64,000 bases of DNA from Limisalsivibrio acetivorans (GTDB lineage Bacteria; Chrysiogenota; Deferribacteres; Deferribacterales; Geovibrionaceae): positions 2,057,407 through 2,121,406 of the forward strand of contig NZ_ATWF01000001.1 in assembly GCF_000421105.1 (NCBI RefSeq). Direction: 5' to 3'. This document shows positions 37,165-60,978 of the stretch, piece by piece (the first letter of the stretch is position 1; every line of letters begins with the position of its first letter). The translations under genes and the position numbers were made by a program. Under the pieces are notes generated by a model that was given only the letters and a program-made list of their open reading frames with translations, was not told where the DNA came from and made no database searches.

Positions 37165-37182
37165 AAATGCCGAGACCGGAAT
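37165..37182. repeat. Left attachment site (att-like repeat of tRNA-Leu 3' end)
   Basis: AAATGCCGAGACCGGAAT here matches AAATGCCCGAGACCGGAAT at 49643-49661 except for one missing C. The right copy is the 3' end of tRNA-Leu, so this is the displaced end left by integration. Confidence 0.8.
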
Positions 37183-37241
37183 GTAAGTCGTCTTGTATGT
37201 TATTGGAAGGGCTGTGTAAATACTCTATCGGTATGTTCTTG

Positions 37242-37261
37242 TACCGTCATATGTACCGTCA
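37242..37261. repeat. Left arm-type recombinase sites (TACCGTCA x2)
   Basis: TACCGTCA occurs twice with 12-bp periodicity. The same pair with the same spacing is found at 49510-49529 near the other end, the pattern expected for integrase or excisionase arm sites. Confidence 0.65.
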
Positions 37262-37386
37262 AGAAATCTATGCTATATAATTATTATCAAAAATAGATAA
37301 TCATACACCCTATAGGCCATCACCGATTATTGGGCATATTTGACACGTATTTAACTTGATTACATAACACGTTGCTTGAGTATAGA

Positions 37387-37998
37387 CTATAGAGATACGA
37401 TCCCCCCCTCCCTTTTCACCATAAACTTGAAGTTGGCTAATTCAAGCATTTCAAGATCTCCAGAACCATTACCGTAAGCATAAATATCGGTATAGTCTTC
37501 TAGCTTTAGTAGCTCTTTTATTCTTTTGGCTTTTTCGAAACCGTTGCAATTATGCCCCTTTATCTTACCTGTTAATTTGCCCTGTGTGACTTCGATTTTA
37601 GTTGAAAGGAGTTCTAGGCCTTGTTCCTTACACCATATATGCAGGTAGTCATTTAGCGAGGCTGAGACCACAATAATACGGTCTCCGTTCTCTCTATGCT
37701 GATTAAGAATCTTTGTTGTGTCTTCTCTTAAAATTGTGGGGATAATATACCTTGAATAGTTGCAAGCCTTATTTTGGAACTTATCATATATTTCACCAGC
37801 AAAAAATAGACTCAGAAATATCTCTTTCATTCTATGACCACTTATCAGTTTGGTCTTATACATAATTAATAGTGGTGATAGAGCTGTCATGAATAAATAG
37901 AACAACCAACGGCCTTTGTAATATTTTGCAAAGTCTAACAAGCTATCTGTATTTGTAAGAGTCCCATCAAAATCAAACAGCACTAGAGTTTTATTCAT
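37387..37998 (-). CDS. HAD-IB family phosphatase, predicted polyprenyl-phosphoribose 5-phosphatase
   Basis: A 203-residue HAD hydrolase with motif I LFDFDGTLTNTDSLLDF, motif II in VVSASLNDYLHIWCKEQG, and motif III/IV in YAYGNGSGDLEMLELA. A hydrophobic segment near residues 30-47 suggests membrane association. It is the last gene of the cargo operon, 1 nt after the DprE2-like gene. In the mycobacterial arabinose-lipid pathway a phosphatase removes the 5-phosphate from decaprenyl-phosphoryl-phosphoribose; this protein could fill that step although it is of a different fold from Rv3807c. Role is inferred from context. Confidence 0.8.
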   Translation of the reverse strand: MNKTLVLFDFDGTLTNTDSLLDFAKYYKGRWLFYLFMTALSPLLIMYKTKLISGHRMKEIFLSLFFAGEIYDKFQNKACNYSRYIIPTILREDTTKILNQHRENGDRIIVVSASLNDYLHIWCKEQGLELLSTKIEVTQGKLTGKIKGHNCNGFEKAKRIKELLKLEDYTDIYAYGNGSGDLEMLELANFKFMVKREGGIVSL

Positions 37999-37999
37999 G

Positions 38000-38731
38000 C
38001 TAAATGCTGAGTCTTTTAAATATAGATTCCGGTATATGCCTTATTATAAACATTATAATCCTCCAGATTCCCTTAGTGTAAAGTATGTTCTTTCTCTTTT
38101 GCTGATACTTATAGATGGCACTAGCCACCTCATCAGGCTGGGCAGTTAACTTTTCCGGCAGGTCCATGTCTTGTGTCATTCTTGTATTTACAAACCCTGG
38201 CTTAACTGTAAGAACAGGTACATTCGAGTTATTTAGCCTATTTCTAAGGCCGCTGAGGTATGCTGTTAAACCTGCTTTTGCGCTCCCATATAAGTAGTTT
38301 GTCTTACGCCCTCTATCTCCAGCAACAGAGCTGACAGCAACAATAAAACCATTCCTATGTTTCTCATAGTCATTGGCAATAATATTCAACAAGCTCACAC
38401 ATCCAGTAAAGTTAGTGTTTATTGTCTTTAAGGTCTCATCTAGTTCTGCTTGTGCTATCTCCTGATCAGCCATATATCCAACACATATTATCGTACCAAC
38501 GGGTCTTTCAGGTAGTTTATCGTAAAACTCAACATGCTCTTCTAAGTTGCACACATCAAGCTCAAATAGTTTAACAGTATTACTACTTCTTAAGGATATA
38601 TCGTTTGCAAAAGCCGTAAGTTCCTCATGTTCACGAGCTGCAAGGTACAGGTTGTAGCCATTTTCCGAATACTTTCTAGCAACTGCTTTAGCAATATCAC
38701 TCTTAGCGCCAACAATTAATACATAGCTCAT
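38000..38731 (-). CDS. SDR oxidoreductase, DprE2-like (decaprenylphosphoryl-2-keto-ribose reductase)
   Basis: A 243-residue short-chain dehydrogenase: cofactor loop LIVGAKSDIAKAVARKYSENG at the N-terminus and catalytic Tyr/Lys in TNYLYGSAKAGLTAYLSGL. Length is close to mycobacterial DprE2 (254). It overlaps the DprE1-like gene by 4 nt (ATGA type), the same gene order as dprE1-dprE2 in mycobacteria. It should reduce the 2-keto intermediate to polyprenyl-phosphoryl-arabinose, completing epimerisation of ribose to arabinose. Confidence 0.85.
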   Translation of the reverse strand: MSYVLIVGAKSDIAKAVARKYSENGYNLYLAAREHEELTAFANDISLRSSNTVKLFELDVCNLEEHVEFYDKLPERPVGTIICVGYMADQEIAQAELDETLKTINTNFTGCVSLLNIIANDYEKHRNGFIVAVSSVAGDRGRKTNYLYGSAKAGLTAYLSGLRNRLNNSNVPVLTVKPGFVNTRMTQDMDLPEKLTAQPDEVASAIYKYQQKRKNILYTKGIWRIIMFIIRHIPESIFKRLSI

Positions 38732-40020
38732 AATCCAAGTCTCCTTGACTGTAAAGAGTTGAGGTGTTTGTCCATCTTATAATCCATCCTCAAGGCTCTG
38801 AAGTCCTTGAGCTTATGGTATCCAGCTGCAAATGCTTCGCTGCTTACTCTTACATCTTTGGTCAAATAGATCCTTCCACCATGCTCGAGAACGATTCTAT
38901 CCAACTCATCCAGAAGTCTAAAAAGTCCTCTTTCTATTTTAAAATCAAGTGCCAGGGAGTAACCCTCTATTGGAAATGAAAGGTAGTTATCATTTGCTTT
39001 CCCATAAAGTTTGAGAACGGCAAGAAAAGATCCTTTACCACTTTTTGATATAGTGTCTAATATTTTTTTAAGCCCATCGTAACTTCTTTCTTTTGGAAGA
39101 ATGAATTGATACTGGGTGAAACCTTTTCGCCCATAAATTCTATTCCAGTTGCCTATAGAGTCCAAAGGATAGAAAAAGCTATCAATGTCAACCTTTTGCT
39201 CGGAAATGCCTTCTGGAGCCTTGCGATAATAGAGTGTATTAAAAAGAGAGACAGAAGCTTTATTAAGGGAGATGGATGGAAATTCGAATGGTATTCCTAA
39301 GCCGCCTTTTGGCTCATATTTAAGCTTTCCTCTTTTACAAAAATCACCAACCATGAGGAGGCACTTACCAATGTTTGGTTCTTTTGCTAAGCAGTCTATC
39401 CAGGCAACAGAGTATGGCAAGTGAGAATAAGCTTCAAACGCCTCAAACGTTTCTTTAAGATTCTTTGTTTTAATTGTTGTCTGTTCAATTGTGCTTGATG
39501 GAATTTTCTTTAACTTAAGCTTAGCAGTTAGAATAACTCCAGTAAGCCCCATCCCTCCACAAGTGGCCTTAAAAAGCTCGTCACTCTTTGCGCACTTTAC
39601 AACTCTGTTATCTGGTAAAAGCAATTCCATTTCCTCAACACAAGAGCTGAAACAGCCTTCTATGTGGTGGTTCTTGCCATGTACATCGCTTGCAATAGCT
39701 CCTCCAACAGTTATTAATTTAGTACCAGGAGTTACTGAAAGAAACCAGCCTTTTGGAACGAATGCGGTTAAAATATCGGAAAGCATAGCTCCGCTTTGAC
39801 AGTGCAGTGTTCCATCACGATTGTCAAAGCTTAGAAAATAGTCATACTTGTTACAAGCTAAAATATTATCTGCAAGAGCGCTGTCACCGTAACTCCTACC
39901 GTTACCGTAAGGTATAAAGTCAGTTCCAGAATTATACAGCTCTTGTGCAGTCTCAATATTCCTTAGTTGCTTAACATTTGATTCTATTACAGGGTATTTT
40001 CCCCAGCCGCATACTTTCAT
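38728..40020 (-). CDS. FAD-dependent oxidase, DprE1-like (decaprenylphosphoryl-ribose 2-oxidase)
   Basis: A 430-residue VAO-type flavoenzyme. FAD-binding PYGNGRSYGDSAL (near 38-50) and GGAIASDVHGKNHH (107-119; His114 aligns with the His of the same motif in mycobacterial DprE1) are clear, as are SFLAVLKLYG and GGRIYLTKD, with the Lys needed for catalysis. The residue aligned to Cys387 of M. tuberculosis, the covalent benzothiazinone target, is Ala357. It would oxidise polyprenyl-phosphoryl-ribose at C2. Tight spacing to GtrA upstream and DprE2 downstream. Confidence 0.88.
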   Translation of the reverse strand: MKVCGWGKYPVIESNVKQLRNIETAQELYNSGTDFIPYGNGRSYGDSALADNILACNKYDYFLSFDNRDGTLHCQSGAMLSDILTAFVPKGWFLSVTPGTKLITVGGAIASDVHGKNHHIEGCFSSCVEEMELLLPDNRVVKCAKSDELFKATCGGMGLTGVILTAKLKLKKIPSSTIEQTTIKTKNLKETFEAFEAYSHLPYSVAWIDCLAKEPNIGKCLLMVGDFCKRGKLKYEPKGGLGIPFEFPSISLNKASVSLFNTLYYRKAPEGISEQKVDIDSFFYPLDSIGNWNRIYGRKGFTQYQFILPKERSYDGLKKILDTISKSGKGSFLAVLKLYGKANDNYLSFPIEGYSLALDFKIERGLFRLLDELDRIVLEHGGRIYLTKDVRVSSEAFAAGYHKLKDFRALRMDYKMDKHLNSLQSRRLGL

Positions 40021-40022
40021 TT

Positions 40023-40412
40023 CTAACCCTTAAACACATATTTCTTATCTAACTTATACTTTATTAAATAGCCTATAGAAAGACCGGTCACTGCCCCTAA
40101 ATACTTTGCTAGTTTAAAGTCAAAAATGTAGTTAAAACTAATCTCAAAACTCCAGAATATTAGTGTAGTGATTACACCCATAGAAGTGTAAAGGATAAAC
40201 TTAATACTATCATCAAGTTTATTCTTTGTTATGTAATAAAAGATATATCTTTTATCAAGGATATACTTAGTCACCAGCCCAAACAAAGTTCCCCAGAATA
40301 TTGCGATATATAAAGAGTATGTACCTGCGTATATCTTGAGTGAAAGGAACTGTGAGGAAAGATTAACGATTGTTGAGATTCCTGCAAAGATTATATATTT
40401 AACTGCTATCAT
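40023..40412 (-). CDS. GtrA-family membrane protein
   Basis: A 129-residue protein with four TM segments (FAGISTIVNLSSQFLSL start, GLVTKYILDKRYIFYY loop), typical of GtrA/DPMS_TMD flippase-like proteins. The ATG at 40412 overlaps the UbiA stop as ATGA, so coupling is clear; a longer frame from 40448 would run inside the UbiA gene and is rejected. The mycobacterial arabinose-lipid locus contains Rv3789, also GtrA-like and of similar size, next to dprE1. It probably helps move or organise polyprenyl-phosphoryl-arabinose at the membrane. Confidence 0.85.
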   Translation of the reverse strand: MIAVKYIIFAGISTIVNLSSQFLSLKIYAGTYSLYIAIFWGTLFGLVTKYILDKRYIFYYITKNKLDDSIKFILYTSMGVITTLIFWSFEISFNYIFDFKLAKYLGAVTGLSIGYLIKYKLDKKYVFKG

Positions 40413-41269
40413 ACGAGCTTTACCAAGACAAAGAACAACGTTATCCATAGAAAGATTGTGACTTGTAGAAATCTGTCTTTTATAACAATCCTTGTCGGGC
40501 TACCGCTATTTTGTTCTACAAAAGTTATTTGCATATAACGCATTATTCCAAGAACAACAAAGAAAGTAGTGATAAAAAGGTTATCAGTACCAAGTCGCTC
40601 AATAACTGAAGGTGATACAGAGTAGAGTAAGTAGGCAACAATAACTACCCCTGACATTAAAACCATAGTTGCATTAACAAACTCTAAGTTATAACCATCA
40701 ATGTTTTTTCTGGTCTGATGTCCCCGAGTTGAAAGCAGAACGTCATCTCTTCTCTTTGCCACAGCAAGGAAGAGGGCTAACAGAAAAGTTACAACAATAA
40801 TCCATTTAGAAAGCTCAATATCGGTAACTGAGTTTCCTGCATATAGCCTTAATACAAAACCAGTAGCAATAATTGCAATATCAACAATAGCAATATGCTT
40901 AAGTTTGAAGGAATAGGCAATATTAAGGACAAAGTATATCAGGAAAACCAGAAGTAGATTACTTGAAAGAAAAAAAGCAGATATAAACGCAGTCAAAGCT
41001 AGGGTAATAGATGTTAAGGCTGCTGTGAATGGTTTGATTATTCCAGAAGCAATTGGCCTATGTTTTTTTACTGGGTGTTTTCTATCTTCTTCCAAATCTT
41101 TAATGTCATTTATTATATAAATCGAGCTTGCTAAAAGAGAGAACAGAGCAAATACAATAAACGTCTTAAATATAATGTAGATATCGAGATTGAATGAGAA
41201 AAAAACGGGAGCGAAAACAAATAAGTTCTTTATATATTGATGCGGTCGAAGGAGCCTAAAAAATCCCAT
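40409..41269 (-). CDS. UbiA-family decaprenyl-phosphate phosphoribosyltransferase-like protein
   Basis: A 286-residue prenyltransferase with about eight TM segments. The first Asp-rich motif is in YIINDIKDLEEDRKHPVKKH (near 65-85), followed by RPIASG, and a second site near YNLEFVNATMVL, matching Rv3806c-type enzymes that join phosphoribosyl pyrophosphate to polyprenyl phosphate. The start RPHQYIKNLFVFAPVFFS block is also typical. ATG 41269 is chosen with a GGTGA motif upstream; it lies 1 nt after the preceding stop. This is the committed step of the predicted arabinose-lipid pathway. Confidence 0.85.
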   Translation of the reverse strand: MGFFRLLRPHQYIKNLFVFAPVFFSFNLDIYIIFKTFIVFALFSLLASSIYIINDIKDLEEDRKHPVKKHRPIASGIIKPFTAALTSITLALTAFISAFFLSSNLLLVFLIYFVLNIAYSFKLKHIAIVDIAIIATGFVLRLYAGNSVTDIELSKWIIVVTFLLALFLAVAKRRDDVLLSTRGHQTRKNIDGYNLEFVNATMVLMSGVVIVAYLLYSVSPSVIERLGTDNLFITTFFVVLGIMRYMQITFVEQNSGSPTRIVIKDRFLQVTIFLWITLFFVLVKLV

Positions 41270-41270
41270 T

Positions 41271-43222
41271 TTAGTCACCACTATTTCCTATTATAAAATG
41301 TCCTATTGAGTACTTTTCATCTCCGTCCTCTGGAACTATAAATACTTCATCTGCGATTACTGGGTTATCGAAGAGTACTTCTTTTCTATTAAGTCCAGTA
41401 GAACCATATTGTCCATAAACTCTTACATTTTCGACGATTTTATCTTTGTTTACAAATATAACTGTGTAAAGATCAGTGTGGTCATATGAGATATCAAACG
41501 ATTTAATTGACATCGCCGTATTTAAGTTTATGACAAGATAGTGTTCTGGTTTTATTATAACGGTATTTTGATTCCATATATGGCCGCTTCTTTTGGGGGC
41601 TTGAAGCTTTGAAATGTCTATTTTTTGAGTTTCAAGATACTCGATTTTATAGGTGTTAAACTTAAGGTATTCTTCAATATAATGATTATACAAACCTATG
41701 TTTAAATACAGTATATGTTTTAATCTTTCTAAGGTAAATACATCGCCTCTTGTAATACTTCTAATTGTGTCATAATACTCTGATAAATCATCATTTATTA
41801 TTAGATTCTTATTGCTTTGTATAGACTCTTTATAGCCATATGGAAGACTTCTTACGAAATGCCCGATTCTCCAGTTAGTGTTAAAGTCTTGTGGTATTTT
41901 TGACAACAATGGATCTACAAGTCCACACTTATCAATAATATAGTGCTCTGGTCCGTGCCAAACGCCAAAAAAACCTATTCCGGCTTTTCTTGTGTGTACA
42001 TTGGCATAACTATTACCAATATTAGTATCGTAAACACTCTCTTTATAATTCAAGCCGTAGTTGTTTGAGAGACTAGCAAAAAGGCTTCTTTTCCTTGAAG
42101 AGTAATATTTTCTCTCATCAGCTATTCCAGTTCCTCTGATGTTGTCTTTACTAGCAGTGACCAACCCATTTCTCATAACCTTAGGAGAGTTGATATTTAT
42201 TGACGAAAGCCCAAATAGTAAGATGATGAAAAAGAAAATATTTATATTTTTAAGACGGTGATAATTAAAACTAGACACTACTAACGCTGTAGCAAAAAAA
42301 GGTACTGCAAAAAATCTTCCAGACATAAAATCGCCGCCTATTTTTAGGATATAGAGCAAATAGAGCAAGACGCCAAATGATAAAAGCTTGTGTAGTATGC
42401 TTCTGCTGACTATTGATGCGATTAGTGCTGTAATAATGACACCTATTGTAAATGGATCGAACTGAATTACGTCGATATAGTACAAGATACCTTGCTTCAT
42501 AAGTTCATACTTTGGTAGACCTGTATTCAGTTTGGCATATGCAGTATTAGGGAGAGGGAGGCCGTAGTAGACTAATGAAAAGAATTCCCATATTATAAAC
42601 GGAATTGAGCCAACAAATAAACATTTAAGCGCATTTGTAGTATTATTGACTTTTAGCTGTTGATAAACGATATATATTTGTGAAGGAAGTGCTATTAATA
42701 TTAAATCTGGCCTGTTGAGGAACATAAAAAAAACAGTAACCAACTCGTAGAGATACTTTTTTCAAAGTTTGAATCTGTAATTTTTGCAAAGTTAACTATG
42801 TAAAATGAAATTAGCAAGAATGATAAAGGGTTTTCTAATCCAGATGTTGAGTAATCAATGAATGCTTGTGAGAAGAACAGTATAAGCAAGAAAATTATAG
42901 AACATGTAATATCTTTGAAGTAGTATTTTATTGCAACTATCAGAGATGCCAAAACTGTTATAATTGATATTGCGATAGTTGAGTAATATATATGTCCAAA
43001 AATAAGATAAGCAAAAGTAAGAACAATAAACCAAAGAGTGTGAGTATAAGCCTGAACTCTTTCTCCAACATTAAATACTGGACCAAAACCGTGTGTAAAA
43101 TTCATCACACTTCTTAATGTAATTGCAGCATCATCTGAAATCCAAGAAGTTCTAAGAATGGTAATAAGCAGTAAAGATAATAAGAATGTTACTGCAACTA
43201 TGTTAGTAAAATTCTTATTCAT
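41271..43222 (-). pseudogene. AftB-like arabinofuranosyltransferase (GT-C), split by a frameshift at T8
   Basis: Two overlapping frames (43222-42701 and 42743-41271) make one protein. The N-terminal part has a first TM and then SWISDDAAITLRSVMNFTHG, GERVQAYTHTLWF, the loop with catalytic-type Asp pair and GYTNPLW-like motif of AftB and relatives. The second frame continues with NRPDLILIALP, more TM segments and a C-terminal periplasmic domain. The frame changes at a run of eight T on the coding strand (A8 at 42726-42733); one extra T would give a single 650-residue protein, close to mycobacterial AftB (about 627). It could be a mutation, phase variation, transcriptional slippage or a sequencing error. 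Confidence 0.75.
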
Positions 43223-44372
43223 GAGAATTCACACCTGTTATTAGTTTTTCTTTAGAGTTACTGTTTGCAACATTTCGTATGTAACTGTCTATATAGAACA
43301 AGAAAAGAGGTATGATTATTGGGTAAATAATTCCTAACGTCCTAGTCTTTTGGCCAGATAGAAGTATTATTACTGTCATTATGACAGGTATCGCTAAAGA
43401 GCTTTTTGCAAGAAATCTTGATTTGTTTATATTAAGAAGCCCTGCCCAGACAAAAGAAAATGCACAAAAGAAAGCTATTAATGTATCAATAAAACCATTC
43501 CAGGAAAGGAAATGGTTTAGATAACCTTTAGGGAATTCACCTTCAAGAAGATTATAGCCGTAGTTTACTTCAGCCAAACCTCCACCTAAAAAATACCTCA
43601 GCAATACAAAGGTTATTCCTGGTATACTGGCTATTATAAGAGTTTTGAAATTCATCGATGAAAATAGATTTCTTAACGATAGATTGTGAAAAATCCATAA
43701 GAAAGATGCAACAAGTAAAATCTCCTTTGTCATCACACCTAGAACTGACGAAAATATAAAAAGTAGCACATTTTCCCTTTGAATAGAGATCATAATTAGT
43801 ATCATCCAAAAGAAACTAAATATCTCAAGCATGGGCAATATTAAAGTATTTGTTGTTGTTACCATCGTAACAAATAGAATATTGCCGAATAGTGTAGTTA
43901 CATGATTGAAGCCAAGCTTTAAAAGATAGTCTCTAAATATGAGAACGATGGCTGTTAAAAGTATAATATTAAGTATTAGGTATGCCTTATAATAGCTAGT
44001 ATTAAGTATATGTTTTATGAGTTTTGCTATTGAAGTAGGTAGGATTCTGTACTTGTAAGGTGGTTTACCACTGGACTGTTCAATTGTTTGAGCTAAATAG
44101 AATCTTGAATCTCCACTGAAAAGAGTCCATTCTTTACTGCTGACCTTTAACTGTTCTTTATATTGATGAAACTTGCCAATATCGTCAAAGAATTTTTTGG
44201 GCATGTAGTTAGCAGGTAGTTTTTGCCAATAATATCTTGTAGTTATTCTAGTCTCACTCTTATCATATATTAGATGCAACGATGTTGAGTATATTATTGT
44301 AAACAGTATTAAAAGCTCTAATATGATGAATTGATATTTATGACTATTTTTTAGCATTGTCTTGAGTCTCAT
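43215..44372 (-). CDS. Polytopic membrane protein, possible second GT-C glycosyltransferase
   Basis: A 385-residue protein with an N-terminal TM, a soluble loop (about 40-130) containing GDSRFYLAQ and PPYKYRILPTSIA, and then eight to nine TM segments. The layout (short TM, large first periplasmic loop with acidic residues, many TMs) is that of GT-C glycosyltransferases, but I cannot name the family. It overlaps the esterase gene by 29 nt and the AftB-like gene by 8 nt. It may add another sugar from a polyprenyl-phosphate donor or recognise the acceptor. Confidence 0.65.
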   Translation of the reverse strand: MRLKTMLKNSHKYQFIILELLILFTIIYSTSLHLIYDKSETRITTRYYWQKLPANYMPKKFFDDIGKFHQYKEQLKVSSKEWTLFSGDSRFYLAQTIEQSSGKPPYKYRILPTSIAKLIKHILNTSYYKAYLILNIILLTAIVLIFRDYLLKLGFNHVTTLFGNILFVTMVTTTNTLILPMLEIFSFFWMILIMISIQRENVLLFIFSSVLGVMTKEILLVASFLWIFHNLSLRNLFSSMNFKTLIIASIPGITFVLLRYFLGGGLAEVNYGYNLLEGEFPKGYLNHFLSWNGFIDTLIAFFCAFSFVWAGLLNINKSRFLAKSSLAIPVIMTVIILLSGQKTRTLGIIYPIIIPLFLFYIDSYIRNVANSNSKEKLITGVNSHE

Positions 44373-45249
44373 AGCCCATTAGAAATGTTCGAATTACATT
44401 TAGCAGGCTTATTCTTTTTGTCAAATTCTCATAATAATAACCATGAACAAGTGTTCTTGAATTACAGAGGTATGAAGTATTACCAGCTTTATTAATCTTC
44501 ATATTTGTATCCCATGAGTCTTCATACGGCACTGTGTTATCTCTGTCACCATGGACAATAAGCGTGGTAGGCAGACCAGGTGAAATATAATTATATGGCT
44601 CAATAAATCTTGCATTCACTCTATAATCTTTTCTGTAATAACCACCTTCCCTTAAGCGTGTTACTGGATTTATAAGGACAAGTTTACTCGGCTTAACATT
44701 AAGATTATATGAAAATAAGGGTATTGTTAGCATAGAAAGCGCTAAGTGCCCGCCCGCAGACTCTCCACCAACAATAAAGTTATCGACATAGCTTCTGGTT
44801 CTATGTTTGTTATATGCCCATAGATATGCATATTTTGCATCTCTGACTGATATAAAAGGCATATGAGAGTCCCATACTTTTGTGTACTCTGGAAGGTGTA
44901 CAGCGAAGCCTAGGCTCGCAAAATACTCTCCTATGAAAGATATTTGTTCAGGCTTGCCTCCAGTCCAGCCACCACCGTGGAAAAATACTATTACACCTTT
45001 GGGCTTATTCAAAGGATAATATGAAATGACTCCTATGTACTTATCTTGAGCCTTGTATTTTTCTTTTTTTATTGTGTAGCCGTTTTTTTCAAATTGCTCG
45101 AGCGGTACTGGGTTATAGTTGTATATTTCGGTAAAATTACCAGTGCATTGATAACGAATAATGTATGGAGAAAGATCGTATGCCTTAGCCATATGATTGT
45201 TAGTAACTAAAAGTAACAAGGCAATTATTAAATTTAAAACTTTTTGCAT
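44344..45249 (-). CDS. Secreted alpha/beta hydrolase (esterase/lipase family)
   Basis: A 301-residue hydrolase with a signal peptide (about residues 1-23, ending MAKA). It has the HSL-type oxyanion motif FFHGGGWTGG, the nucleophile elbow GGESAGGHLAL, an Asp in VHGDRDNTVPYE and a late His (LVHGYYY). It should act in the periplasm or at the surface as an esterase, perhaps trimming or moving acyl groups on the glycan made by this operon. It is the first gene of the cargo operon, so its upstream gap should carry the promoter. Confidence 0.8.
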   Translation of the reverse strand: MQKVLNLIIALLLLVTNNHMAKAYDLSPYIIRYQCTGNFTEIYNYNPVPLEQFEKNGYTIKKEKYKAQDKYIGVISYYPLNKPKGVIVFFHGGGWTGGKPEQISFIGEYFASLGFAVHLPEYTKVWDSHMPFISVRDAKYAYLWAYNKHRTRSYVDNFIVGGESAGGHLALSMLTIPLFSYNLNVKPSKLVLINPVTRLREGGYYRKDYRVNARFIEPYNYISPGLPTTLIVHGDRDNTVPYEDSWDTNMKINKAGNTSYLCNSRTLVHGYYYENLTKRISLLNVIRTFLMGYETQDNAKK

Positions 45250-45350
45250 ATTATACCTTCAAGCATTTCATTGTTCTGTTTATCACTATTAGAAAAGAAA
45301 TGGTATCCCTGTAAACATCTAGTCAATAATGATGAGGTGCTTCAATTAAA

Positions 45351-45463
45351 GAGGTTTTATAGGTTTTTAGCCCTATACGCATACCTGAATATGTTGACTT
45401 TTATTGAGCATATTGTGGAGGTGTCTTTACACACTTAGATACAGATACAAACTATAAAACCTC
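45351..45463. repeat. Long-range inverted repeat and AGGTTTTA-type repeats in the island
   Basis: In the 319-bp gap between the esterase and DUF3987 genes, GAGGTTTTATAG (45351-45362) and CTATAAAACCTC (45452-45463) form a perfect 12-bp inverted repeat 89 bp apart. Each arm is followed by a further partial copy (AGGTTTTTAG; CTAAAACCTA). The gap holds no other gene. It may be a regulatory or replication/excision site of the island. Confidence 0.5.
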
Positions 45464-45568
45464 TAAAACCTACAGAACTATACATGTGAAACTGAACGTG
45501 GAGTAAATAGAGAGAAGGACAGAGCCCCGGAAAGAACCAGGTCTCTGCCCCTCTGCTCTGGGGGGGGG

Positions 45569-47203
45569 TTAAATCTTCTTAACGTTAGGGTTTATATAAT
45601 AGTCTAGTCCTTGCGGTCTGCCGCCTTTACTGCCTCTGTTAGTTGGCTTGACACTTTTTATCCAGTTAAGCTGTTCTAAGTATTCAAGAGCATCTTTTAT
45701 TACTTCAGTATTTTCCAGCATTGACCAGCCCTTACGTTTAATATCGGCCACCTTAAACGGTGTAGGTAAATCATTATCTTCATTTCTAAGCTTTTTAGAT
45801 AGGCTCTTAGATACATTATATATATAATCTTCATTAATATCATACAAACGCATTGCGTGACTCTCTAAGTATTCGCACCATTGAATAGCCAGTTTCAAAC
45901 TTTCTACAGAAATGTTTTTTTCAAAGTTTTCTGAACAAATATCTGTTAGATGGAATATCAGAGCCAGCGAAGGCAGAAGAGATTCATATTTGCTGATATG
46001 TTGTCCGAGCATACAGCTATCCATTTCTACAGTACGGGCAATAAGCTCTTTGTCCCAGTCTTCAAAAACTTTCTGAGCCTCTGAATTAAATCTAATGATG
46101 TTATCATTTCCAGACTTTGATTCTAAGCTATCAAAAATTGATCTGTAATCAAGAAATGTAAGTTTGTTAAGTATACTGTATACAGTCTCTTGTGCTTTAT
46201 CATTATTGCTCTCATCAGTGTATTTGCGTTCTGCTGTGTCAGGATAGACCATGAGTTGAAATCGTTGAATAAACCCGTCATTACCTTTCTTACGTAATGA
46301 TTCTGAGATATGTTGTATAAGAACTTCCGGCTGGATACCACCCACAATAGATAAACAGGCATGCTCTACTTTTATGCTTTTTCTGCCTATCCGGTGGTCA
46401 TGATAGGGAGAGTCACCATTCCATGATTCTAGCAGAATTGTCTTCTTTTGTTCATAGCCTTTCTTGTTTAAACTATCAAGCAGAGCGGATATTTCATCAC
46501 GATAGTAGAGCAAGCCCTGAGGGTTTTCGCTTAACAACTCCATCAGCGCCTCAGCTGTTACATCATTTATTTTTAGTTGTCTTTTCGATGGAATGCTAGA
46601 AAGGTTTTCTTTATGCTTACGTATTTCCATGGTGATATTTCTTGCTTCTTGAATAGTAGTAGCTTTACATTTCTTAACCTCTAAACCCTTAATTACAGTA
46701 TTAATGGCATCCCTCTCATTCTCATATTTTTCTGAGTAGTGCTTACTAATTTCATTCTCTAAATACCTTATAGGCCTGTTAAGAGCTGCTGTTAAAGCAG
46801 GGCTTTTCTTAGTTGAAGGATCTCCCACTACTATACCCCAAAGGTTTGGAACAACTTTCCATGAAGTATCTTTGCGTTTCGGTATAACTTTTAACTCTCT
46901 GCCAATTAATGAGCCTGTGAGAGTAATCAAAGGTACTGCAATATACTCTAGTGGAACTTGTAATCGGTATGACACATCAACAATAAAGTCTCTGTATGCT
47001 TTCGGTAACATACCACTTGTTAATTTAATAACAGGCCTGAGACCCTTTTCAAATTCTTCAGGTCGCTGCCATTCGAATGTATCAGGGTCTCCAATTAATT
47101 CTTGATTGATTGACGAATAATAGGTAACATCATTTATTGTATTGGTGTTTTTTTGAAGCTCATGTACAGTCGCACCTGCCATGGGCTTTTCCTTTTGATT
47201 CAT
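45569..47203 (-). CDS. DUF3987 family protein (YfjI-like, mobile-element replication type)
   Basis: A 544-residue DUF3987 protein. Visible features are VPLITLTGSLIGRELKVIPK, the Walker-like GVVGDPSTKKSPAL region (IVVGDPSTKKSPAL), LLYYRDEISALLDSL and SIVGGIQPEVL, characteristic of the family found in phages, ICEs and P4-like islands and thought to work in DNA replication or mobilisation. It overlaps the AlpA-like gene by 4 nt. A run of nine G directly follows the stop and lies outside the coding frame. Confidence 0.8.
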   Translation of the reverse strand: MNQKEKPMAGATVHELQKNTNTINDVTYYSSINQELIGDPDTFEWQRPEEFEKGLRPVIKLTSGMLPKAYRDFIVDVSYRLQVPLEYIAVPLITLTGSLIGRELKVIPKRKDTSWKVVPNLWGIVVGDPSTKKSPALTAALNRPIRYLENEISKHYSEKYENERDAINTVIKGLEVKKCKATTIQEARNITMEIRKHKENLSSIPSKRQLKINDVTAEALMELLSENPQGLLYYRDEISALLDSLNKKGYEQKKTILLESWNGDSPYHDHRIGRKSIKVEHACLSIVGGIQPEVLIQHISESLRKKGNDGFIQRFQLMVYPDTAERKYTDESNNDKAQETVYSILNKLTFLDYRSIFDSLESKSGNDNIIRFNSEAQKVFEDWDKELIARTVEMDSCMLGQHISKYESLLPSLALIFHLTDICSENFEKNISVESLKLAIQWCEYLESHAMRLYDINEDYIYNVSKSLSKKLRNEDNDLPTPFKVADIKRKGWSMLENTEVIKDALEYLEQLNWIKSVKPTNRGSKGGRPQGLDYYINPNVKKI

Positions 47204-47406
47204 ATTTGAGCCTCATTGTTTGTTCTGGAATCATTAATTCTCTGGTCAATCCACTCAATTACTTCACTCTCTAGCCACCCGACTGAACGTGTGCTGAGCT
47301 TGATTGACTTAGGAAAGGTTCCTTTTTCCATCTTCGCATAAATTGATGATCTGGATAGGCCTGTGATTGCTTCGACTTGCTTACGCCGTAAAAGATTTTT
47401 TCTCAT
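47200..47406 (-). CDS. AlpA-family DNA-binding regulator/excisionase-like
   Basis: A 68-residue helix-turn-helix protein: LLRRKQVEAITGLSRSSIYA, MEKGTFPKSIKLSTRSVGWL and ESEVIEWI are the standard AlpA/MerR-like excisionase blocks. In P4-like islands this protein activates the integrase or works as recombination directionality factor. It is coupled to the DUF3987 gene by a 4-nt overlap. Confidence 0.88.
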   Translation of the reverse strand: MRKNLLRRKQVEAITGLSRSSIYAKMEKGTFPKSIKLSTRSVGWLESEVIEWIDQRINDSRTNNEAQI

Positions 47407-47504
47407 ACTTTTCCTCGTTTTATTTTGTGTAGATAACGATATATTATGAAAAGTAAATAAGCGTATGCAAAATACTATGTTGTTATTTTACCAACAGAGA
47501 AAGA

Positions 47505-48272
47505 CTAAAAATTAAAGTCACTGGTACGTTTGATCATGTGTGCAAGATACTCATGGCGCTCATTTTTGTTTAGTGAGTCAAAATGATTAAGTATCTGATT
47601 TATTTTCTTTTTGTCTAAATAAAATGAGTTAACCTTATCTCTGCGGTGACCTAAAATTGAGTCATAAGATGAACTAAGCTTCTTCGCTAAATAATCACAA
47701 CCGGATTCCTTTAATTCAGTAGCATTATTCTTTGTAGGCGGGATATTCAGTATAAACTCTAATGCCCATAAGGCTAATGCCACATCAGCACTGATATAAT
47801 AGTAATCTGTCTGAGGGGTTCTATCCTCAATATTTTTCCCTCTGCCAACCTTCTTGAGTGTGCCTGCTGTATTATCAACACAATAGGCAATGACTGATTC
47901 GGGGAGTTGTTGATATTGGTGACCTGCTTCTAGATTTTCTTTAATAGCAGAACTCAAAACATTTCTTATAAATTTATTTTTTTTGTTATGAGCTAAGTAA
48001 TCTAAATAATCAAAATTACCAATCATAGCTTTATTATGTTCTGTTGTTAAGTCATCTATTGGTTCTTTTCTTTTGTGGAATATCAACTGGAGTATGATAT
48101 CAATTATCTCCTCTTTCGATATTTCCTTTATTTGGTTATTATCTCCATCGAAAAGCTCAAGGCTAGCAATATAGCACTTATACTCCTCCCAAAACATAAG
48201 AAGTTTTGCACACCTTGTCAGCTCCTTGAAATTTAGTTTGATTTTAATCTTTCTAGACAATCCGACCACCAT
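47505..48272 (-). CDS. Island-encoded protein of unknown function
   Basis: A 255-residue AT-rich, Lys/Asn-rich soluble protein with no recognised domain. It has no signal peptide or TM. Its first 40 nt overlap the end of the integrase gene if the first start is used; a later Met (MFWEEYK, about residue 27) is also possible. It lies between integrase and AlpA-like genes, a position often held by island accessory or regulatory genes. Confidence 0.6.
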   Translation of the reverse strand: MVVGLSRKIKIKLNFKELTRCAKLLMFWEEYKCYIASLELFDGDNNQIKEISKEEIIDIILQLIFHKRKEPIDDLTTEHNKAMIGNFDYLDYLAHNKKNKFIRNVLSSAIKENLEAGHQYQQLPESVIAYCVDNTAGTLKKVGRGKNIEDRTPQTDYYYISADVALALWALEFILNIPPTKNNATELKESGCDYLAKKLSSSYDSILGHRRDKVNSFYLDKKKINQILNHFDSLNKNERHEYLAHMIKRTSDFNF

Positions 48273-49414
48273 TGCATCATTTTCGTGCGTTCCTTAAGGT
48301 ATTGAGCATGGTTATATGCTGCTTTAACTTTATTCTTTTCCGCATGTGCAAGTTGCATCTCAATTATATCAGAGTTCCATCCATTTTCATGTAAAAGCGT
48401 TGAAGCCATAGCCCTGAAACCGTGACCTGTTATCTGATCTTTTTCAAATCCCATAGTACGCAATGCTGAGTTGATTGTGTTGTTACTCATCGGTCTAGTC
48501 TTTCTGTTTACTGAAGGGAATACGTATTTTTCATTGCCAGATACTTTTTGGATATCCTCGAGTATGCTTACTGACTGAGTTGATAGAGGAACCATATGTA
48601 TCCTGTTCATTTTCATCTTTTCAGCAGGGATTTTCCATATAGCATTATCTAAGTCTATCTCACACCATTCAGCATTTCTAAGTTCTCCAACCCTAGTAAA
48701 AACATTTGGTAAAAGCTTTAAAGCACAGATTGTAACATAACTGCCTTGATAGTCTTCAATAGCCCTTAGAAGCGCTCCTACAGCCTTAGGCTCAGTAATT
48801 GTAGCCATGTTCTTATTACGTTTTGGCTTTAGTGCACCTGCTAATGCTTGGCTAGGATCGTTATCGCATCTATCAGTAATAATACCGTACCTGAAAATCT
48901 CTCCGCAGATACCTTTCACTCTGTGGGCTATCTCTATTGCACCTCTATTTTGTATACGGTTTAGTACAGTCAAAAGCTCTCTTGAGGTTATATTGTTTAT
49001 AGGGCGATTACCGATATAGGGTAAGGCATCCTTTTCCAGAAAATGCCACTTTCGTTTTGCTGTATCAGGGTTATACTTTGAAACTGCCTTATCGAACCAC
49101 TCTTTAGCAACATTCCCGAAGCTGTTGATAATATTTTCTTCAGCTTTAGCTTTCTGGTTCTTCTTCTCCTCGTTAGGATCAATATTCTTGGCAATGAGCT
49201 TTCTAGCTTCGTCTCTGCTCTCTCTAGCTTCTTTTAATGAGATGTCAGGATATACTCCTATAGCAAAAGTTTTCCGTCTTCCATGGAACCTATAATCAAG
49301 CCTGAAATATTTGCCTGATTTAGTTACAAGTAGGTACATGCTTTTCTCGTCAGTGATCTTATAATTCTTATCTTTAGGCTTTGCATTTTTAATGACAGTA
49401 TCTGTAAGAGCCAT
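48233..49414 (-). CDS. P4-type tyrosine integrase
   Basis: A 393-residue integrase with the N-terminal DUF4102 arm-binding domain (LTDTVIKNAKPKDKNYKITD) and catalytic domain with Arg in RVGELRNAEW, HGFRAM as His-x-x-Arg, and the nucleophile Tyr in KAAYNHAQYL. It lies 229 bp from the tRNA-Leu 3' end, as usual for islands that integrate into tRNA genes. Copies of TACCGTCA or its complement lie at its start (49414-49421) and in the gap up to the tRNA, likely its arm sites. Confidence 0.93.
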   Translation of the reverse strand: MALTDTVIKNAKPKDKNYKITDEKSMYLLVTKSGKYFRLDYRFHGRRKTFAIGVYPDISLKEARESRDEARKLIAKNIDPNEEKKNQKAKAEENIINSFGNVAKEWFDKAVSKYNPDTAKRKWHFLEKDALPYIGNRPINNITSRELLTVLNRIQNRGAIEIAHRVKGICGEIFRYGIITDRCDNDPSQALAGALKPKRNKNMATITEPKAVGALLRAIEDYQGSYVTICALKLLPNVFTRVGELRNAEWCEIDLDNAIWKIPAEKMKMNRIHMVPLSTQSVSILEDIQKVSGNEKYVFPSVNRKTRPMSNNTINSALRTMGFEKDQITGHGFRAMASTLLHENGWNSDIIEMQLAHAEKNKVKAAYNHAQYLKERTKMMQWWSDCLERLKSN

Positions 49415-49509
49415 GACGGTATAACCTCGGTTATTTTTAATTGATACCGTTAAAACATTATCTATGATTAGATACGCTTGACGGTATAGGATATGTCTGA
49501 ATTATATGG

Positions 49510-49529
49510 TACCGTCACATCTACCGTCA
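49510..49529. repeat. Right arm-type recombinase sites (TACCGTCA x2)
   Basis: TACCGTCA occurs twice with 12-bp periodicity, the same as at the left end (37242-37261). Related copies are TGACGGTA at 49479-49486 and 49414-49421 and TACCGTTA at 49445-49452, all between integrase and tRNA. Confidence 0.65.
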
Positions 49530-49642
49530 ACAGAAGCTGGATATAGCAGGAATATTATGGAATGCATTGGCTCACGAGGCCTTGCAAAAGGCTGTATTTC
49601 ATGAATTTTATAGCTTTCTACAGAACTACCAGGATGCTGCCT

Positions 49643-49661
49643 AAATGCCCGAGACCGGAAT
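49643..49661. repeat. Right attachment site (att-like repeat overlapping tRNA-Leu 3' end)
   Basis: AAATGCCCGAGACCGGAAT; all but the first three bases belong to the tRNA-Leu 3' end. It pairs with 37165-37182 at the left boundary. Confidence 0.8.
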
Positions 49662-49730
49662 CGAACCGGTACAGAGCTTCGCTCCGAGGGATTTTAAGTC
49701 CCTTGCGTCTACCAATTCCGCCACTCGGGC
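49646..49730 (-). tRNA. tRNA-Leu (anticodon UAA)
   Basis: An 85-nt class II tRNA. The acceptor stem GCCCGAG pairs with CTCGGGC, the D-loop reads TGGCGGAATTGGTAGACGC, the anticodon loop CTTAAAA has TAA, and a long variable arm (TCGGAGCGAAGCTCTG) precedes GGTTCGATTCC. Discriminator A is at 49646. CCA is not encoded. The island uses its 3' end as integration site and leaves the gene intact. Confidence 0.96.
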
Positions 49731-49748
49731 AGGCAGTTGTGAACCTGT

Positions 49749-49813: not shown

Positions 49814-50851
49814 TTATTTTATTACTACAGGTGATTCGCCGCCTGGCAGGACTGTACCGATAACCTCTACGTGGGGATACCCCGAATCCTTCAGTGTGCT
49901 GAGCATCCTCTCAGCATCGTCCTCGCAAACCCCTATGAGCAGGCCGCCGGAGGTCTGGGGATCGAAGTATATTATGTGGGAGTTATCCTGCATCTGCTCA
50001 TATGTGCAGTCAGTACCAAGGAATTGCTGATTGGAGAGTGCGCCGCCGGGTATGACGAACTGGGAAGCAAAATCCGCCGCACCCTCCATGACGTGGATAG
50101 CCGATTTGTTTATCTCTATGCTGAGTCCAGCCCCCTTAGCCATCTCACATGCATGCCCTGTGAGCCCGAAGCCTGTGATGTCGGTAACGGCTGATACATC
50201 GTAGCTTCTGAGCAATTCCGCCGCCATCCGGTTCGAAATAAGCATCTCTTTAGTAACTTCCTCAGCCTGTTCATTGGTGGCTTTGCCAGCCTTTATGGCC
50301 GTTGTGAGGATGCCGATTCCGATGGCTTTTGTGTATATGAGAACATCGCCTGGGCGCAGGTCGCAGTTGCGGTAGTATTTATCGTCTTCGATAACGCCGG
50401 TTACGGCAAAGCCCGCCTTGATCTCATCATCGCTTACGGTGTGCCCCCCCAGAAGAGTACACCCCGCATCGGTGAGCTCATCGCAGGCCCCCTGCATTAT
50501 CTCACGGATAAGCCCTTCTTCGGCGGAGCAGTTGTAGCTGAAAACGGACATGGCTGTAATGGGTATGCCGCCCATGGCGTATACATCGCTCATGGAGTTG
50601 AGCGCAGCTATACGGCCGAAGGTGTGCGCATCATCCACCACTGGTGTGATGAAGTCCACCGTCTGAACCAGTATCCTGCCGTCGGGCATTTTGAACAAAC
50701 CAGCATCGTCGCTTGTTTCAAAGCCCACAAGCAGTCGTTCATCCCGGTAGCGGGATAATCCATCAAGCATTCCTGCCAGGTCCGCCGGACCCAGTTTAGC
50801 CGCTCAGCCCGCCGCTTTGGCGTATTCTGTCAGCCGTTTCTTATCCGCCAT
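49814..50851 (-). CDS. selD: Selenide, water dikinase (SelD), itself a selenoprotein with UGA at codon 16
   Basis: The gene makes selenophosphate from selenide and ATP. The open frame visible from 50770 lacks the active-site N-terminus, but continuing upstream gives MADKKRLTEYAKAAG, then TGA (50806-50804), then AAKLGPADLAG, which matches the SelD start where the catalytic residue is Cys or selenocysteine. The ATG at 50851 has AGGAG 5 nt upstream, giving 345 residues. A hairpin follows the UGA at the expected distance. The rest is typical (SDDAG, VDFITPVVDDAHTFGRIAAL, GGHTVSDDEIKAGFAVTG). This shows that the organism decodes UGA as selenocysteine. Confidence 0.95.
50779..50806 (-). promoter_or_regulatory. 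Predicted bacterial SECIS element in selD with its Sec UGA
   Basis: TGA at 50806-50804 is followed after about 12 nt by a hairpin with arms GGTCC and GGACC and a GGC loop (50791-50779), the usual placement of the SelB-binding hairpin in bacterial selenoprotein mRNA. Confidence 0.75.
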
Positions 50852-59349: not shown

Positions 59350-60978
59350 ATGTCATACCTCGCACTCGCCAGAAAACTCAGGCCGCAGAACTTTGATGAG
59401 ATAGTCGCACAGGAATTTGTGGTGACTACCCTCAAAAACGCCATGGAGATGGACAGACTTGTCCACGCCTACCTCTTCACAGGCCCCCGTGGCGTGGGTA
59501 AAACCTCCACTGCACGTATATTCGCAAAGGCTCTCAACTGTCTCTCACCAAAGGGTGTTAATCCGTGTAACGAGTGCGAAAACTGCCTTGAGATAACAGG
59601 CGGAACATCCATGGATGTGATAGAGGTGGACGGTGCCTCAAACAGGGGTATCGATGAGATTCGTGACCTGCGTGAGGCGGTTAAATTCTTCCCTGTGAAG
59701 TGCCGGAAGAAGGTGTACATCATCGATGAGGTGCACATGCTCACCGAGCAGGCGTTCAATGCCCTGCTCAAAACCCTTGAGGAACCTCCAGAGCATGCCC
59801 TATTCATCCTTGCAACAACCGATCCCCAGAGGATTCCTGCAACTATAATATCCCGTACCCAGAAATACGACTTCCGTAAGATACCCTTTGAAAGGATGTA
59901 CTCATCACTCAGCGAGATCCTTGCCAAAGAGGGGATCGAGTACGATGAGGATGCCCTTAACCTTGTCATACGAAACTCGGACGGATGCATGCGGGATTCC
60001 CTCTCCATGCTGGATCAGATAATAGCATACACCAACGGGCGTGTGGATGAATCGAACACGGCCTTCCTCCTCGGCTACTCCGAGGCGAGTATCATCGTAG
60101 AGCTTTTCAAGGCTATCCTTGAGGAGCGTAAGGAGGATATAGCAGGGCATATCACCGAGCTGACCTCAAAGGGTGTTAATCTCAAATTTGCCGCAGAGAG
60201 CCTCATAGAGCATACCCGCAATCTGCTTTTCTATATGACTGGCGGGGGAACCCTCAAGGGCTTAACAAGCTATGAGGAGGAGCTTTACAGTGATCTCTCC
60301 TTAAGGGTTACAGAGCATCGGCTCTTCGCCCTCTTTCAGATATTCCAGAAACTGCTCAACGATTTGAAGTTTTTCAGCTTCGATCAGTATGTTTTCGAGT
60401 TCGCCATGTATAAGGCGGCCTCTTTCTCTGCTGTTATCCCTGTCACGGGGGGAACACCCCAGGCTGCGGTATCATCTGCCAGGCAGTCCCCGGCGAGAAG
60501 TGCCCAGCAGTCCCCTTCCCATAAAGCCCCACGGCAGGAGAGCCCATCCCAGGGGGGTGGTGACAAATGGCAGGAGATGATAAAGCATATCTCCGAAGAG
60601 AACGCTCCCGTAGCCTCATATCTCAGCAACGTTTACCTCTCCCGTGTGGAAGGAGATACGCTCTATATAGGTGTTGCAGAGGAAAAGCGATTCTACGTGC
60701 AGATGCTTGAGAAGCCGGAGACGAGGGATTACCTGAACAAAACTGCCGGTAAGTTCTATCCTGGTGTTTCATATATCAAGGCTGTTCTGGATTCGGAGCC
60801 GAAAAAAAAAACGGTAACTGAGAAGAAGAAGGAAAGGGAAACCTACTACGAACGCAAGACAAAGAAGGAAGCCGGAGAAAACGAGGTCGTTAAACAGCTC
60901 AAGCAGGAATTCGAAGGCGAGATTCTTGATATAAAGGTTCTAGGAACACCGGACGGCGATTCGGAACAGACTGAATAG
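59350..60978 (+). CDS. dnaX: DNA polymerase III subunits gamma/tau
   Basis: A 542-residue clamp-loader ATPase: Walker A GPRGVGKTSTARI, zinc Cys cluster NPCNECENC, Walker B YIIDEVHML, sensor segments TTDPQRIPATIISR. Domain III follows, then a Pro/Ser/Gln-rich linker (about 375-400), and a short C-terminal region ending EVVKQLKQEFEGEILDIKVLG, which matches the tau C-terminus. A run of ten A (60802-60811, codons 485-488) is followed at once by stops in both other frames, which suggests a shorter gamma product by slippage. No good ribosome binding site lies close to the ATG. Confidence 0.95.
   Translation: MSYLALARKLRPQNFDEIVAQEFVVTTLKNAMEMDRLVHAYLFTGPRGVGKTSTARIFAKALNCLSPKGVNPCNECENCLEITGGTSMDVIEVDGASNRGIDEIRDLREAVKFFPVKCRKKVYIIDEVHMLTEQAFNALLKTLEEPPEHALFILATTDPQRIPATIISRTQKYDFRKIPFERMYSSLSEILAKEGIEYDEDALNLVIRNSDGCMRDSLSMLDQIIAYTNGRVDESNTAFLLGYSEASIIVELFKAILEERKEDIAGHITELTSKGVNLKFAAESLIEHTRNLLFYMTGGGTLKGLTSYEEELYSDLSLRVTEHRLFALFQIFQKLLNDLKFFSFDQYVFEFAMYKAASFSAVIPVTGGTPQAAVSSARQSPARSAQQSPSHKAPRQESPSQGGGDKWQEMIKHISEENAPVASYLSNVYLSRVEGDTLYIGVAEEKRFYVQMLEKPETRDYLNKTAGKFYPGVSYIKAVLDSEPKKKTVTEKKKERETYYERKTKKEAGENEVVKQLKQEFEGEILDIKVLGTPDGDSEQTE
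60802..60811 (+). promoter_or_regulatory. A10 slippage tract in dnaX
   Basis: The in-frame codons are CCG AAA AAA AAA ACG GTA ACT. Loss of one A reads CGG TAA and gain of one A reads AAC GGT AAC TGA, so either shift terminates within four codons. The Thermus thermophilus dnaX gene makes gamma by transcriptional slippage at A9. Confidence 0.6.

Follow-up and report, generated by a model that had tools for sequence, protein, structure and literature searches.

The window analysed here is a stretch of 64,000 nucleotides that contains a 12.5-kb integrated island (37170-49661) seated in a tRNA-Leu(UAA) gene. The island is delimited by two copies of a direct repeat, encodes a tyrosine integrase and has a G+C content of ~35%, against 47-52% outside it (Table 1). 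It also carries a DUF3987 gene, directly past the stop codon of which lies a run of nine G (45560-45568; C9 on the coding strand) in an otherwise AT-rich island; the 464-kb genome sample described below has just one other G/C run of at least nine. On the other side of the tRNA gene, a SelD-like ORF (49814-50770, minus strand) seemingly lacks its usual N terminus, as judged from reading its translation only, and its start may lie upstream, via a Sec (UGA) or Cys codon. Within the island, eight overlapping or abutting minus-strand genes form an operon which encodes, in order, an alpha/beta hydrolase, a membrane protein, a transferase, a UbiA-type phosphoribosyltransferase, a GtrA-like protein, DprE1-like and DprE2-like proteins and a HAD phosphatase. 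The transferase gene, third in this order, is overlapped at its start by 8 nt of the membrane protein gene and at its stop by the start of the UbiA-family gene.

Table 1. Features of the island and of the dnaX gene in the window.
Feature	Position	Strand	Evidence or remark
Tyrosine integrase of the island	48233..49414	-	PF00589, PF13356
Direct repeat CCGAGACCGGAAT, island end	49649..49661	.	inside the 3' part of tRNA-Leu(UAA) (49645-49731)
Direct repeat CCGAGACCGGAAT, second copy at the opposite island end	37170..37182	.	att-like repeat, 13 bp; G+C drops from ~49% to 35% in the interval
Esterase-like alpha/beta hydrolase, first in the operon	44344..45249	-	PF20434 E=2.8e-19
Multi-pass membrane protein, encoded ahead of the transferase	43215..44372	-	weak surface-glycopolymer family match NF046093 E=5.1e-6
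AftB-like GT-C gene, N half, 173-aa ORF as written	42701..43222	-	NF041481 E=1.2e-14
T8 tract (A8 on the plus strand)	42726..42733	-	direct sequence
AftB-like gene, C half, other frame	41271..42725	-	NF041481 E=3.5e-7
UbiA-family polyprenyl-phosphate phosphoribosyltransferase (DPPR synthase-like)	40409..41281	-	NF008977 E=8.8e-68
GtrA-like small membrane protein, candidate lipid-linked sugar flippase	40023..40448	-	PF04138 E=5.1e-7
DprE1-like FAD oxidase	38728..40020	-	NF053785 E=1.9e-115
DprE2-like SDR reductase	38000..38731	-	NF005489 above cutoff; NF053786 E=4.3e-53
HAD phosphatase, candidate polyprenyl-phospho-ribose-5-phosphate 5'-phosphatase	37387..37998	-	PF12710 E=4.2e-32; family role PMC11127046
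dnaX	59350-60978	+	

The reading frame of the transferase is broken at a run of eight T. At this point the minus strand, which is the coding one, has the sequence TTA CTG TTT TTT TTA TGT TCC TCA ACA GGC CAG ATT TAA, so that the CTG-T8-ATG arrangement of the original prediction is found by direct sequence, as is the early end of the N-terminal frame, which starts at 43222 and meets a TAA at 42701 after 173 codons. The C-half ORF opens at 42743 in the other frame and extends to 41271 (490 aa). Moving by one frame inside the tract gives a single product of 650 aa, which with its stop makes the 651 codons that had been predicted. The break falls within residues 161-179, which are predicted to form a membrane helix, and leaves the catalytic DD motif (D30, D31) and E130 in the N half, with R171, D173, the GGDFMxGR motif (R303) and a C-terminal extracytoplasmic domain in the C half. 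For searches only, the gene was read through as a joined protein.

Each half alone matches the NCBIfam family NF041481 (AftB), the two covering consecutive stretches of the profile (13-145 and 192-286) with scores of 53 and 29 bits against an equivalog cutoff of 1050 bits, and by sequence the window transferase appears to be a relative of AftB and not AftB itself. The joined protein is colinear with mycobacterial AftB (PDB 9dlf/9dlh; E=1.3e-18) in one alignment that crosses the junction, residues 24-250 spanning it in the case of 9dlf, and shares 35% identity with a Leptospira protein across nearly its whole length; since both alignments proceed without interruption, joining the halves is biologically right. 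A scan of the collection with the joined protein returned 226 relatives, 79 loci of which were fetched, and 77 single ORFs drawn from these loci and the Leptospira homolog were aligned. The ORF is open through the break site in all 77, and an R-x-D motif right after the junction is invariant in 78/78 sequences. Across both of its halves the window gene retains 77 of the 79 positions that are conserved in at least 90% of the homologs, which is the modal score among intact family members. Together, the colinearity with 9dlf and with the 77 homologs and the retention of conserved positions uphold the earlier description of the gene as AftB-like with two conserved halves. Stops in three tblastn matches (L048, L065 and L069) were considered as further mid-gene breaks and rejected, as all three fall past the conserved core, close to the C-terminal end.

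In the alignment to McAftB, D62, E172, R221 and R372 correspond to D31, E130, R171 and R303, respectively. The DD motif follows TM1, with D30 present in 74 and D31 in 77 of the 77 homologs, and the counterparts R171 and R303 of the essential arginines, both encoded beyond the frame break, are found in 77/77. The AftB mutants D62A, R221A/E and R372A/E are inactive (PMC12041299). Because the break separates the catalytic Asp31 (the nucleophile) in the N half from the essential Arg171 and Arg303 in the C half, the 173-aa fragment made from the T8 allele is strongly expected to be inactive. No stop was seen within either half and, at 3% per-site neutral drift, only 5% of such genes would stay free of new stops; the break is therefore young or the gene still in use. 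No second copy of the gene was found in the source genome, no close homolog of the transferase within the phylum and no relatives among viral contigs, and a plasmid search gave distant matches only.

The genes that surround the transferase comprise a full set for the synthesis of polyprenyl-phosphate-arabinofuranose, a pathway that starts from PRPP and is known from mycobacteria and from the three-component systems of Gram-negative bacteria (PMC11127046). This agrees with the surface-glycan setting that had been proposed for the locus, and the split gene probably encodes a membrane enzyme that adds arabinofuranose to a bacterial surface glycan. Transfer of Araf from polyprenyl-phosphate-Araf is a candidate activity, suggested by the DprE1/DprE2/UbiA neighbours in the window and at the loci L009, L026, L035, L039 and L075. 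Homologs with UbiA, DprE1 and DprE2 genes within ~6 kb occur in Advenella, Aneurinibacillus, Lampropedia, Thiothrix and a gammaproteobacterial MAG. In G008 (L111, 5620-11227), which belongs to another genus of this family, the order of the UbiA, GtrA, DprE1, DprE2 and HAD genes is the same, with identities of 41-61%, and an unrelated DUF6311 membrane protein takes the place of the AftB-like gene of the island. The same donor genes beside another membrane protein suggest that the donor module is conserved and that the transferase is exchangeable.

The locus can be compared with several known systems. AftB, the mycobacterial terminal beta-(1,2)-arabinofuranosyltransferase (9dlf/9dlh, NF041481), shares its colinear GT-C core with the window gene, in which counterparts of the catalytic DD, R221, R372 and E172 are all present, and it uses a polyprenyl-phosphate-arabinofuranose donor, the synthesis genes of which adjoin the window transferase. 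Unlike AftB, the window gene lies far below the NF041481 cutoff, is frame-broken and belongs to an operon on a mobile island outside Actinobacteria. Three-component systems of pentofuranose addition, exemplified by Citrobacter youngae O1, include forms with DprE1/E2 that are predicted to act with Araf (PMC11127046). As in such systems, a polyprenyl-phosphate-pentose synthase of the UbiA type, a HAD phosphatase, DprE1/E2, a flippase candidate and a GT-C transferase are found together in one operon, although the GT-C of the window is AftB-like rather than an established GT136, the flippase candidate is GtrA-like and the transferase is broken. On the donor side only, the operon also resembles the D-arabinofuranose pathway of the type IV pilin in the Gram-negative Pseudomonas aeruginosa, in which, according to the account of Harvey 2011 given in PMC11127046, an ortholog of DPPR synthase was proposed to make polyprenyl-P-Araf.

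The tract itself is not special, and its length is as expected by chance. When synonymous versions of the gene were redrawn at island codon usage, 67% of them contained an A/T run of at least eight (P ~0.67), and the island as a whole has two such runs for 2.8 expected. None of the 77 homologs has an A/T run of this length at the T8 site, and 17 of the 77 have one elsewhere in the ORF. The genome comparison was based on a sample of 464 kb of the source genome, taken in stretches, in which 20 A/T runs of at least eight occur. About 15 others of this length are contained in ORFs that stay open across them (two or three of these ORFs being short or doubtful), which indicates that runs of such length are not generally unstable in this genome and makes a systematic homopolymer error unlikely. 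Similarly, 135 homopolymers of at least six in confidently coding sequence of the sample keep the frame, and the assembly is thus not generally wrong at homopolymers. Thirteen apparent within-gene frame switches elsewhere in the sample were inspected and rejected, all being ordinary gene starts or boundaries.

The slippery nature of the run in which the frame breaks means that full-length transferase may still be made in some amount. Bypass of frame-shifting indels is common when they occur in runs of 3-8 (PMC3812077), and in reporter expression insertion by the E. coli RNA polymerase restores 5% at T7 and ~10% at T8 (PMC6260861). By analogy with these figures, the rescue by transcriptional slippage envisaged in the original prediction is plausible at a low level. 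A minus-one ribosomal route, which may be added to the options then listed, would run through the heptamer U_UUU_UUA; the N frame crosses the tract as CUG UUU UUU UUA, the heptamer is in phase and has the X_XXY_YYZ form of a frameshift site, and a minus-one slip on it leads into AUG UUC CUC AAC AGG CCA GAU, the correct frame. The heptamer was considered as evidence for programmed frameshifting but rejected as independent evidence, because a T run that opens on a codon boundary and has ATG behind it automatically yields the heptamer when one T is lost. Intact long ORFs of this genome show no avoidance of the same 7-mer in phase, with 8, 2 and 6 copies according to phase. As a shift site in E. 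coli the heptamer is weak, far less shifty than A_AAA_AAG (PMC5009743). Slippage of RNA polymerase would be, by the same analogy, a likelier leak route at T8 than minus-one ribosomal frameshifting.

The T8 break is best explained, with somewhat better than even probability, as a real and recent slipped-strand deletion that produced a null or leaky allele. It is proposed that a T run which happened to occur in the coding sequence of a membrane helix rich in Phe and Leu, in an AftB-like GT-C arabinofuranosyltransferase, underwent a one-base slip that recently broke the frame, and that the T8 allele would yield a 173-aa fragment which has the catalytic Asp, lacks both essential Arg and should be without activity. 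Some full-length enzyme might be supplied by RNA polymerase adding an extra U, and some by minus-one slippage of ribosomes on U_UUU_UUA, in which case T8 would be an easily reverting leaky null and not an evolved switch. A gene without decay elsewhere, a tract that is not conserved and homologs that are intact lead us to infer a real deletion of recent date, and by analogy with E. coli a leak would occur. In the tssM gene of Citrobacter rodentium (A11; PMC4256274) and in the 'pseudo pseudogenes' (PMC1088944), the frame is likewise lost in an A/T run between intact halves, which makes rescue by polymerase slippage possible at T8 also; those tracts are however 9-11 long, and that of tssM was tested, whereas the window tract is a T8 and is not conserved. 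Among the four causes that had been left open, fresh mutation is thus favoured, phase variation and read error are less well supported, and slippage is retained as a low-level contribution. If the break is real, the strain has a full arabinofuranose-donor operon with a terminal transferase that is either off or leaky, and a surface epitope would thereby be silenced. The locus would also be a mobile AftB-like arabinosyltransferase operon outside Actinobacteria; apart from this operon context, the break looks like an ordinary slippage mutation.

The alternative that survives best, while being clearly improbable, is an error of assembly or consensus, the transferase gene being intact in the cell. 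The gene is otherwise perfect, the operon is intact, and the assembly, in 3 contigs, has at least one 10-N gap. The in-frame coding homopolymers of the 464-kb sample, the resolution of its apparent switches into gene boundaries and its unbroken ORFs with equally long A/T runs argue against this reading; of the read error that had been suggested, a systematic form is unlikely and a single one possible.

Surface-glycan transferases are typical phase-variable genes. According to a second and more doubtful alternative, the tract is a contingency locus that switches the transferase on and off, together with the donor genes that follow, on which it would act by polarity. The T8 belongs to the class of poly-A/T runs of at least seven that were noted near frameshifts as possible phase-variation sites in the GeneTack work (PMC3711429), and the gene is third among overlapping operon genes, a position from which its disruption could have polar effects on the donor genes. 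The tract is nevertheless short and of chance length, it has no equivalent at the site in any of the 77 homologs, similar tracts lie inside intact genes, and only five A/T runs of at least ten occur in the genome, which therefore lacks a rich set of contingency tracts. For the phase-variable transferase of the original prediction, understood as an evolved switch, there is no positive evidence. A weaker proposal, equally doubtful in our estimation, is that T8 acts as a leaky dimmer, a few to ~10% of transcripts or ribosomes regaining the frame and providing a low dose of transferase; the same tentative reading would add a reduced expression of the donor genes through the overlapping operon, and easy reversion would turn the tract into a de facto switch of surface arabinosylation on a mobile island.

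It is very unlikely that the site is a selected feature for programmed recoding, either by transcriptional slippage on U8 or by a minus-one shift at U_UUU_UUA. Such a feature would account for the exact phase of the heptamer, the correct frame it leads to and the conservation of both halves, and in its favour are also the ~10% slippage of the E. coli polymerase at T8 and the signs of slippage recoding at an A9-A10 run of dnaX in the lineage. The site is however present in 0 of 77 homologs, against 30 of 30 for the dnaX tract, and the heptamer is weak in E. coli, follows automatically from the loss of a T and is not avoided in phase. No stem-loop or pseudoknot stimulator was found by the tract: the 95 nt downstream, with an MFE of -1.2 kcal/mol, fold less well than shuffled versions (z = +2.3), and reading of the sequence before the tract reveals no obvious Shine-Dalgarno-like stimulator. 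Slightly less probable still is a split gene whose N and C halves assemble as two polypeptides into one enzyme, the second arising by coupled re-initiation at ATG 42725 or TTG 42743, C-frame start codons 5' of the N-frame stop at 42701, for the break lies within the predicted membrane helix, the 77 aligned homologs are all single ORFs at the site, and no ribosome-binding site is evident before either codon.

The look of a selected slippage site, which T8 does not have, is shown by the dnaX gene of the window. An A10 run is found at 60802-60811, at 0.89 of the coding length, and all 30 dnaX genes examined from the order (L112-L141) have an A9 or A10 run in the same part of the gene. In nearly all 30, a one-base slip either way leads to a stop within 4-8 codons. 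The tract is probably a conserved site of slippage recoding of tau/gamma, as in Thermus, from which dnaX slippage is known (PMC1088944). This suggests that the lineage makes use of slippage at long runs, so that a certain leak at T8 is plausible, and the order-wide dnaX tract may prove of more lasting use than T8. In two of the 30 genes (L123 and L138), the encoded frame itself stops and yields the short product, a slip being required for the long one.
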